Assembly (NCBI GenBank): GCA_903827955.1
Contig: CAIKKJ010000170.1
Span: 1 to 34,294, forward strand
Length of the DNA: 34,294 bases
Direction of reading: 5' to 3'
Source: an uncultured Verrucomicrobia subdivision 3 bacterium
GTDB taxonomy: Bacteria > Verrucomicrobiota > Verrucomicrobiia > Limisphaerales > UBA11358
Shown one piece after another: positions 19,617 to 22,600 of this stretch (positions are counted from its first letter, which is position 1; each line of letters opens with the position of its first letter). The notes under the pieces were generated by a model that saw only the letters and a list, made by a program, of their open reading frames with translations, was not told the origin of the DNA and made no database searches. Position numbers and translations under genes: made by a program.

Positions 19617-22600
19617 ATGTCTGAAATTTCCAAAGCCTACGAACCGCAGTCCGTCGAAGACAAATGGTATGACTTCTGGCTGAAGCAAGGTTGCTTCACC
19701 GCCGATCCGAAGTCCGCCAAGCCCGCGTATTCCATCGTCATCCCGCCGCCGAACGTCACCGGGATGCTCCACATGGGCCACGTCTTGAATAACACCATTC
19801 AAGACATCCTCAGCCGCAAGGCGCGCATGGACGGCAAGGAAGTCCTCTGGCTGCCCGGCACCGACCACGCCGGCATCGCCACGCAGGTGATGGTGGAAAA
19901 GCAGCTCAAGAAGGAGGAAAAGAAATCCCGCCACGATCTCGGTCGCGAGGAATTCCTCAAGCGCGTCTGGGTGTGGAAAGAAAAACACGGCGACATCATC
20001 ATCAACCAGCTCAAGAAGCTCGGTTGCTCGTGCGATTGGACGCGCGAACGGTTCACGATGGACCCGGAATATTCCCGCTGCGTGCAGAAGGTGTTCGTGG
20101 AGCTTTACAAGAAAGGCCTGATTTATCGCGGCAAACGCATGGTGAACTGGTGCCCCGTGTCGCAGACGGCGCTCTCCGACGAGGAAGTGGAAATGAAACC
20201 GCAGAATGGTTTCATGTATCACTTCAAGGTGCAAGTCGCAGACTGTAGCGGCGCTGTGTCAGCGCCGAACTCGGCGGTCACAGACCGCCGCTACAATGAG
20301 AGCGACATCAAACTCACCGATACCTGGCTCACCATCGCCACGACGCGGCCGGAGACCATTCCCGGTGACACCGCCGTGGCCGTGAATCCGAAAGACCCGC
20401 GTTATGCGGCGCTTGTCGGCAAATTCATCGTGCGGCCACTGCCCGCCGAATTGCCGCTGGCGCAAAAGCTCATACCAATTGTCGGCGACGAGCATGTGGA
20501 TTTTGAATTCGGCACCGGCGTGCTCAAGGTCACGCCCGCGCACGACAAGGCGGACTTCGACATCGGCACGCGCCACAAGCTGCCGCTCATCGAAGTCATC
20601 AACGCCGACGGCACGATGAACACCCTGGCGGGTGGGCCACTGGCTGGGTTGGATCGCTTTAAGGCTCGCAAAGTTGCCGTGGAAATTCTCACGGAACAGG
20701 GCGTGATGATTGAAGCCAAGCCTTACGAGAACAACGTCGGTTTCAGCCAGCGTGCGGATGTGCCGATTGAACCGCGTTTGAGCGAGCAATGGTTCTTGAA
20801 ATATCCCGCCGTGCCGGAATCCAAAGCCTGCGTGGCCGATGGCCGGATGAAATTCCATCCCGACCGTTGGGCGAAAGTTTACGACCACTGGCTGACGAAC
20901 ATTCAGGACTGGTGCATCAGCCGCCAGCTTTGGTGGGGTCATCGGATTCCGGTTTGGGAAAGAACTTTTGACTGTTTCAGCATCGGTTCGGTTTACACCT
21001 CGGTTTCTGATTTGCTTTCGATCAGCGCGAAAACACAGGAATTCATTGGCAAGGAATCTTCTGATGTCGTTGTCAGCATTGATGGAAAGCAAGTAACTAC
21101 CGATGCCAAAAAACTTTTGGATCTTGGCCTTGAATTAAACAAGACCGACGCAGAAGTGCGCGAAATAAAAGTTCAAGTTTGCACAATTAACCCCAAAGTT
21201 ATTTCTGCATTGGAGCTTGAGCGTTGGACGCAAGATAGTGACGTGCTCGACACCTGGTTCAGCTCGTGGCTGTGGCCGTTCGCCACGATGGGCTGGCCGG
21301 AGAACACGGAGACGTTGAAGAAATTTTATCCGACCACCGACCTCGTCACCGGGCCGGACATCATTTTCTTCTGGGTCGCGCGCATGATCATGGCCGGCTA
21401 CGAATTCATGGGCGAGGCGGAGTCCGCCCTCCCAAAAAAGTTCGCTCTCCCGGATGCGATGCCGTTTCAGAATGTTTATTTCACCGGCATCATCCGCGAC
21501 AAGCAGGGCCGCAAGATGTCCAAGACGCTCGGCAATTCGCCCGATCCGCTCGTGCTCATCGCGCAATACGGCGCGGACGCGCTCCGCTTCGGCACGATGC
21601 GCAGTGCGCCGCTCGGCCAGGATGTGCTCTTCGACGAGAAGGATGTGGAACTCGGTCGCAACTTTTGCAACAAGCTTTGGAACGCCTGCCGTTTCCGCCA
21701 GATGCAAGGCGGCGAAGTGCAGGGCGAAATCGAACGCACGTTGCTCACGCCGGATGACAAATGGATTCTGCTCAAGCTCGACGCCGCGATCCGCGAAGTC
21801 ACGATTGCGCTGAACGAATATAAATTCAGCGAAGCCACCGCCGCGCTCTACAAATTTTTCTGGAGCGAATATTGCGACTGGTATGTCGAGGCGAGCAAGG
21901 CGTCACTGCCGCGCCCGCCCGCCGAGGCTGCGCCCGGTGAAGCGCCGATTGCCGCTGTCGCACTGAGCCCGGAAGTCGAAGCGCGCAAAGCGAACACGAT
22001 TGCCGTGATTGATTTCGTGCTCTCGCACACGATCCGTTTGTTCCATCCGTTCGTGCCGTTCATCACGGAAGAACTCTGGAACGGGATGGGTTACGCCACC
22101 GACATGCCGGACAATCAGGGCGGCAAGACTATCATGAACGCGCCGTGGCCATTGCCGTTCGACGAGGATTTCAAAGGCCACTACGGTCTCGACGATTGCT
22201 ACGTCGAAATGACGGACACGAAATACGAACTCGTCCGCAACGGCCGCGATTTGCGCCGCGCCGGCAACATCCAGGCCGCGAAGAAAGTGAAATACGTCTT
22301 CAAGCCCGCGCAGCATCTCACGCCGCATGACGCGGAAGTCATAAAGCTCCTACTCAATGCGGAATCGCTCGAAGTGAACGACGCCTATCAGCCGCCGAAA
22401 GGCACGCCGGTTGTCGCCTCGCCGCTGGGAGAATTGTTCCTGCCGCTTGAAGGTTTGATTGATGTCGCCGCCGAAAAAATCCGCCTCACGAAGGAAGTGG
22501 AGAAGATCAAATCCGAGATCGTGAAGGTGGAACAGAAGCTGGCGAATCCGAACTTCACCACGAAAGTTCCGCCCGCCGTTTTGGCGGAGCACGAACAGCG

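Follow-up and report, generated by a model that had tools for sequence, protein, structure and literature searches.

An in-frame REPIN-like palindrome in valS and in-frame Y1 transposases inside essential genes of Limisphaerales

The valyl-tRNA synthetase (ValRS) gene of an uncultured subdivision 3 verrucomicrobium (Limisphaerales) carries, in frame, a 52-base element made of two inverted REP hairpins. We read it, with a probability of roughly three in four, as a non-autonomous mobile palindrome of REPIN-like build that landed in a permissive turn of ValRS, was retained in frame and was likely moved by a Y1 transposase. This reading draws on the structure of the element, its repetition, the recurrent occupancy of the same turn among relatives, the empty sites in other relatives and the presence of Y1 transposase domains in frame inside further host genes. 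The window, here the whole stretch of DNA analysed (34,294 nt), is contig C170 of a 3.86-Mb assembly of 213 contigs; G000 denotes the window's own genome, other G codes denote relative genomes and L codes individual loci.

Anatomy of the valS palindrome

valS (19617..22661, + strand; 1014 residues) was assigned by the Pfam families tRNA-synt_1, Anticodon_1 and Val_tRNA-synt_C and by a PDB match to ValRS 1gax. Within it, sequence, repeats, fold and covariation define a head-to-head dimer of GTAG-tagged REPs (TGTAG...CTACA; 20244..20295, + strand). Position 20244 is base 1 of codon 210, counted from the gene start at 19617, and the element codes residues 210-227, CSGAVSAPNSAVTDRRYN, with TIATTRPET directly after. 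The left REP (20245..20267, + strand) consists of a GTAG tag (20245-20248) and an 8-bp stem in which CGGCGCTG at 20249-20256 pairs with CAGCGCCG at 20260-20267 around the loop TGT. A spacer, AACT (20268..20271, + strand), separates it from the right REP, which is inverted (20272..20294, − strand) and has an 8-bp stem of CGGCGGTC at 20272-20279 and GACCGCCG at 20283-20290, the loop ACA and the tag CTAC (20291-20294). T at 20244 and A at 20295 are the outermost bases. The two perfect back-to-back hairpins, and the 18 residues that they add in frame before TIATTRPET, agree with what an earlier note had described from the letters alone. A tag at one end of each unit and a stem of 5-13 bp with a short loop characterize GTAG-tagged REPs, and both are found here, with 8-bp stems and 3-nt loops.

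The palindrome is predicted to fold strongly as RNA (-34.6 kcal/mol, z -5.25) and as DNA (z -5.92), with none of 200 shuffles equalling it in either case; its hairpin pairing exceeds chance. Measured from anchor to anchor against the short form of the gene (87 vs 18 nt), valS has a net gain of 23 residues, and comparison with empty sites showed that a further 23 bases beside the palindrome (20296..20318, + strand), which are not palindromic, are also extra relative to the short-turn relatives. This 23-nt tail is not accounted for by simple insertion of the palindrome.

Repetition and conserved structure of the element

The earlier note had read the element as a REP-like palindrome that had entered an essential gene able to tolerate it, and the genome search that it proposed bears this out: the element, which we call family A, gave 12 match rows at 11 places in its own genome (E <= 1e-3) and was matched in 31 of the 58 other relatives searched (32 of 59 counting its own genome). 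The 18 residues were also looked for as a conserved feature of distant ValRS proteins and were not found to be conserved there.

We aligned 20 family-A dimers, chosen by BLAST similarity and not by pairing. A model of two hairpins paired 97.5% of 320 cells (helix 1 in 100% and helix 2 in 95% of cells) with 25 double-change cells, and neither the pairing nor the number of double changes was reached in any of 500 shuffles. The left tag is GTAG in 18 of the 20 copies, the remaining two having GCAG and GTAA, and in all the aligned dimers two inverted REPs recur as one unit, as in a REPIN. A single long hairpin was rejected as the conserved fold: it paired 83% of cells, below its own shuffles, and two of its column pairs are mismatched in 20/20 copies. 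Since the same two column pairs mismatch between the arms in every dimer, the unit looks like a regular heterodimer of two REP stem types. The earlier suggestion of compensation inside each hairpin is thus borne out by the double changes, while its view of the arm differences as drift gives way to the heterodimer. The two halves may be likened to a small transposon whose left end differs from its right, a comparison made on copies that were found with a heterodimer query. Family-A ends read GTAGCGGCGGTC...

Recurrent occupancy of one ValRS turn

To place the insert among relatives we collected 140 valS loci, of which 136 were measurable (four had no flank on one side); dropping 12 duplicates left 124 rows, among which two pairs are still identical. 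The site holds an 18-nt turn of six residues in 90/124 rows and a loop of 30-33 nt in 9/124, all nine in a separate ValRS clade; it is occupied in the remaining 25, where every insert is a multiple of three in length and free of stops. No loop of 34-71 nt was found at the site among the rows measured.

Repeat-like DNA of about six families makes up 23 of the 25 inserts, and a protein domain the other two. Sorted by eye from the DNA, with the labels B, C and E loose, the families are A (GTAGCGGCG..., 3 rows), B (GTAG/GGACAGGC-like, 6 rows), C (GGGAGCGC..., 6 rows), D (CCCTCACCC-like, 5 rows), E (a GCGACGCCCTCGTCGC stem, 2 rows) and F (1 row), besides X, the protein domains of 324-333 residues (2 rows). 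The labels of G038, G044 and G020 (family C) and of G060 (family E) are loose because their own group's query does not match their valS inserts. Folding was strong (z below -2) in 16 of 22 distinct inserts tested and no better than z -2 in the other six. The two X inserts lie in frame at the same turn (L162:3637-4608 and L169:3637-4635) in metagenome-assembled genomes (MAGs) titled Verrucomicrobiaceae and Prosthecobacter, and are 52% identical to each other; Pfam over their valS frames gave synthetase families and none for the insert, and an AlphaFold2 model of the insert was poor (mean pLDDT 42).

The turn has been occupied recurrently. By parsimony the valS tree requires 19 or more changes of state; the figure falls to 17 if the two X rows are dropped and to 13 with six weakly folding rows also set aside, and it is 22 when insert types are distinguished. 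The tree is a quick one, built without the insert columns, in which many forks are weak, and the counts do not tell gain from loss. As the earlier note had proposed, we aligned valS from close relatives, and they have the six-residue turn in place of the insert; most of the relatives closest to G000 have no insert at the site. The distant G022 carries family A at the same codon boundary while its sister G025 is empty, and one insert is common to G000 and G068.

Further copies of the family that a genome carries in valS were found in 11 genomes (G000, G022, G018, G037, G013, G062, G067, G049, G052, G065 and G006), in a count that sets aside family F, G068, L122, L127, L134, L140 and L148. Match rows, which include both strands and, where matched, the valS copy itself, numbered 12 in G000 and 21 in G022 for family A; 79, 35 and 5 in G037, G018 and G010 for B; 50, 8, 7, 3 and 0 in G065, G038, G052, G044 and G020 for C; 49, 35, 10 and 6 in G062, G067, G013 and G049 for D; and 7 and 2 in G006 and G060 for E. 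Most of the named relatives that the scan found belong to Verrucomicrobia, with subdivision 3, Limisphaerales or Pedosphaera in many of the record titles, and 80/80 among the matches listed are MAGs by title. Verrucomicrobial valS loci (L118 and others) also occur in MAG records that bear the names Klebsiella pneumoniae or Akkermansia muciniphila, and those organism names therefore look unreliable.

Such a distribution could also have arisen largely by homologous recombination of valS alleles, with REPs turning over in a long loop that predates them, and not by transposition anew each time. Tails resembling GPEIDSEGRIW or IRLTDTW flank different palindromes in different clades, so allele exchange may have moved some of the inserts, and the valS genes of G000 and G006 are almost identical at residues 450-533. 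Against recombination as the main route, the family-A copies of G000 and G022 lie far apart in the tree with different flanks, a single valS frame of G065 (L229) holds three family-C palindrome pairs at three places, and with no row between 33 and 72 nt at the site, the clade yielded no long loop free of palindromes. We consider this alternative unlikely, if the strongest of those weighed here. No target-site duplication or excision was observed.

The insert within the ValRS protein

Aligned to ValRS 1gax, the insert falls between the matched stretches 3-207 and 237-455, just before IAT-RPET. DSSP assignment of an AlphaFold2 model places one strand before it (residues 191-209; 20187..20243, + strand) and one after it that leads into the editing domain (residues 232-242; 20310..20342, + strand), and residues 214-219 of the insert have pLDDT under 50. 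The model is shallow (29 sequences, mean pLDDT 73.2, pTM 0.60), with the editing domain mostly confident and the catalytic core poorly predicted; it depicts the insert as a loop of low confidence where the editing domain begins, in keeping with the surface loop that the earlier note had envisaged, and such a loop may be exposed.

A loop at this place might serve the enzyme, for example as a tRNA contact or a modulator of editing, its palindromic DNA being coincidental. The frame is preserved in an essential gene and G000 shares its insert with G068, as a functional loop would predict; yet the inserts vary in sequence and length, most rows do with the six-residue turn, the segment is modelled with low confidence and the same palindromes are found outside valS. 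We judge a functional origin improbable.

ValRS takes inserts elsewhere too. Further positions near residues 408, 699 and 762-788 carry them in many species, often repeat-like by eye, and a single target site in ValRS was accordingly rejected; inserts at several positions favour tolerance of loops over one DNA target. In L074 (G004), L069 (G026) and L068 (G035), inserts near residues 408 and 450 have a motif like LPELIRTA...GELY in common. Residues 450-533 (window 20964-21215), after RIPVW, are wholly different between relatives, and no Pfam family was found for this part of the window's valS.

In-frame palindromes in other genes

The phenomenon is not confined to valS. In-frame copies of family A are present in pheT (G026), metH (G013), an RlaP-type gene (G049) and, in the window's own genome, a Ser/Thr kinase, between DFG and MGTPQYMSPE, which we take to be kinase motifs. 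Frames over several other own-genome copies (for instance L007 and L005) look by eye like chance or antisense frames; they were rejected as in-gene cases and left out of the tally. In G018, 11 of the 20 family-B places examined (from 35 match rows) are in open frames that extend 77 or more residues to either side, and nine of the ten frames other than valS have a Pfam family, not always on both sides of the insert; the hosts include MutS, GcpE/IspG, DnaX, proline dehydrogenase/aldehyde dehydrogenase and peptidase M3. The same 77-residue rule was passed by 13 of 25 family-C places in G065, three of them in valS; the other ten are spread over nine further frames, eight with a Pfam match (thrS, a class II D/K/N tRNA synthetase, a ClpA/B-like ATPase and a DNA methylase, among others). 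A family-A-like peptide also occurs near the C terminus of PriA in G025 (L368).

The earlier note had further suggested that the palindrome may act as an mRNA hairpin in valS, and such a hairpin might control translation or stability of the message. The strong predicted RNA fold (z -5.25) fits such a role, which is otherwise unsupported: the element sits 627 nt into the gene, most rows have no palindrome, the hairpins, length and sequence at the site differ among species, and the insertions occur in many different genes. We give this reading very little weight, less still than a functional protein loop. Although all the genomes examined appear to be metagenome-assembled, an assembly or binning artefact is scarcely credible, the same pattern being present with intact frames in records of different projects (L122, L127, L134, L140 and L148).

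Y1 transposases in frame inside host genes

One of the family-C stretches turned out to lie in thrS, whose frame holds a Y1 (IS200-like) transposase domain in mid-gene. Searching Y1 matches in long frames, we found at least 21 host frames with an in-frame, RAYT-like Y1 domain in at least 16 genomes, a count that leaves aside Y1 hits in frames of about 345-515 aa, as in G048. Thirteen of the 21 come from a set chosen for long frames and eight from a set of 20 Y1 stretches, which also held eleven stand-alone genes and one locus (L325 of G020, a 697-aa frame with Y1 beside a pilin-like stretch) that was set aside from the host-fusion count. The hosts are alaS in seven genomes (G000, G021, G065, G004 and G027 at one site; G013 and G060 at another), priA in six (L368, L369, L370, L371, L374 and L322), clpB in three (L320, L321 and L373), dnaE in three (L375, L376 and L323), and thrS (L318) and dinG (L372) in one each. 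The window's own genome is among them: its alaS holds a Y1 domain with inverted palindromic ends (L319:824-3055, + strand) and reaches the end of contig C118, the sequence continuing in C8 (L381).

All 21 frames are free of stops over the available DNA; a contig end cuts six of them on one side. Pfam named the host in all 21 and Y1_Tnp in 19 (L370 and L377 being the others). The HUH motif is present in 21/21 domains and Y-x-x-NP in 20 by pattern; in the twenty-first, from dinG, YIRQNP was recognized by eye in the same alignment. Among eight pairs of Y1 domains, dN/dS was 0.035-0.21 in seven (dS 0.33-1.4) and saturated in one, and the low ratios point to purifying selection on the transposase. 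A PDB match for the alaS insert was discarded, as it covered the AlaRS flank alone (E 0.09).

Several comparisons bear on movement. The Y1 copy at alaS site 2 of G000 shares 91% identity with that of G013, which occupies alaS site 1, but only 49% with that of G065, which occupies site 2 as well. Two distant Y1 subfamilies (28-37% identical) occupy the same position in PriA, just before FLLHGVTGSGKT (or FLLYGVTGSGKT) and ahead of the Walker A motif. From such patterns we infer that the in-frame Y1 elements move. Among the matches listed, 13 places (G000 included) are at least 40% identical to the G000 Y1 part, and all 13 are in frames of at least 698 residues inside such host genes. A second, insert-free alaS was not found among the matches listed for the seven genomes (2 of 3 matches for G000).

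Transposase ends and the palindromes of valS

Inverted, palindromic ends border seven of the eight Y1 inserts compared, the eighth (G037 dnaE) being cut at the left. In G006, the ends of the clpB element are arranged as GTAGCTGCGACGCC-TCGTCGCAG, and the right one has 22 consecutive bases in common with the family-E insert of the same genome's valS. The right end of the G037 dnaE element matches family B of G037 valS at 33 of 35 bases. By sequence, then, the same palindrome family appears to stand in valS and beside an in-frame Y1 domain for E (G006) and, at one end, for B (G037); for family C of G065 the resemblance between thrS and valS is weaker (94 of 124 aligned bases). The best scores of the three pairs were 104 (G065), 51 and 62; base shuffles were run for the G037 pair (200, maximum score 38), and one of four G006 comparisons scored 36.

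For family A itself no cognate RAYT was found: its ends were absent by pattern from 32 Y1 loci scanned, and no pair of family-A ends surrounds the Y1 domain in the 21 in-frame cases, where there are a few single motif matches inside coding sequence. Beside the three Y1 loci of its own genome, the pattern used detected no GTAG hairpin, and a GCAG hairpin at two. In relatives, GTAG-tagged hairpins from other families flank Y1 genes, on one side or on both, at L234, L241, L244, L246, L251 and L252; REP-RAYT units therefore exist in the order. A Y1 enzyme is the presumptive mover of family A.

Proposed mechanism and significance

Two different GTAG-tagged REP ends facing each other would make up the REPIN-like head-to-head dimer, and what such dimers represent is probably a Y1 element reduced to its ends. 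On the model of the IS200/IS605 group, they would move as single-stranded DNA, the likely movers being Y1 (HUH, RAYT-like) transposases, for family A putatively so. The landing site would be the permissive turn at the entry to the ValRS editing domain, where the insert is presumably translated as a flexible loop and may be neutral for the host. It was retained because its net length is a multiple of three and the reading phase is free of stops; an in-frame landing in a permissive loop would leave the essential enzyme working, and so the insert survives. The same turn, along with other variable ValRS loops, has been taken repeatedly by different repeat families in the lineage. For the full Y1 elements, the lack of a stop codon together with purifying selection on the transposase suggests that in-frame residence is a habit and not an accident.

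A wider proposal, on which we regard the odds as even, is that transposable elements of Limisphaerales live translated inside essential proteins. A stopless Y1 gene would read through its palindromic ends into the host and persist because the cell would not survive a frameshift, a stop or an imprecise deletion; it would have a refuge like that of an intein, though one that involves no splicing. The palindrome in valS would be a non-autonomous member of this system, and loops of ValRS, AlaRS, PriA, ClpB and DnaE its habitual sites. One bacterial order keeps palindromes and transposases in frame inside essential enzymes, and one ValRS turn and one PriA position have each been taken by different elements. 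The inserts mark out, in nature, where essential proteins tolerate insertion, and they offer a direct route to testing whether mobile elements can shelter from deletion in essential genes without splicing.

Comparison with known systems

REPs are named 'extragenic', and RAYTs are usually regarded as stand-alone genes. Intragenic GTAG REPs have nonetheless been published, including in a verrucomicrobium: the main text of Di Nocera et al. 2013 (PMC3733652) describes them inside genes, also in O. terrae, so the earlier note went too far in knowing of no such report for this lineage. According to the same text, over half of the inserts are dimers or groups, coding 20-30 residues, tRNA synthetase genes of other bacteria also carry them, and a RAYT gene usually accompanies them and is missing in some species (PMC3733652). 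The valS element resembles these repeats in its GTAG tag, short stem and loop, head-to-head dimers and intragenic position (PMC3733652). It differs from what is described there in that one protein turn is taken by several families and in the in-frame transposase genes; the terms 'valS' and 'Pedosphaera' are absent from that main text (PMC3733652). Among titles and abstract openings of the open-licence PMC literature, we found no paper on in-frame RAYTs inside essential genes or on the recurrent use of one valS turn.

A Y1 transposase is the presumed mover of REPINs. The valS element shares with REPINs, as described by Bertels and Rainey 2011 (PMC3116915), the joining of two inverted REPs as a unit. 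It departs from the REPIN-RAYT system in that no RAYT was found for family A, and in that the in-frame transposases of other families have no stop of their own and read on into the host gene.

Rickettsia palindromic elements are likewise palindromes kept in frame inside conserved genes, as the element and its relatives are in valS, pheT, metH and the kinase. RPE-4 and RPE-6 are classed as CGTC repeats in the main text of PMC3733652. The valS element differs from these in its tag, GTAG and not CGTC, and in its lineage.

Inteins are mobile sequences that lie in frame in essential genes and carry an enzyme domain; the in-frame transposases resemble them in placing a mobile enzyme domain in frame in such genes. 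Unlike inteins, the 21 transposase-bearing frames have no splicing family among their Pfam matches (E <= 1e-4), and there is no sign that the transposase is removed from the protein. The Y1 domains have HUH and Y-x-x-NP type motifs like those given in the text of the TnpA-Y1/HUH survey of Quentin et al. 2018 (PMC6006769). According to that text, a few unexpectedly long Y1 proteins were dropped as gene fusions or annotation errors (PMC6006769). The in-frame kind described here would fall among those discarded proteins, which merit a second look.
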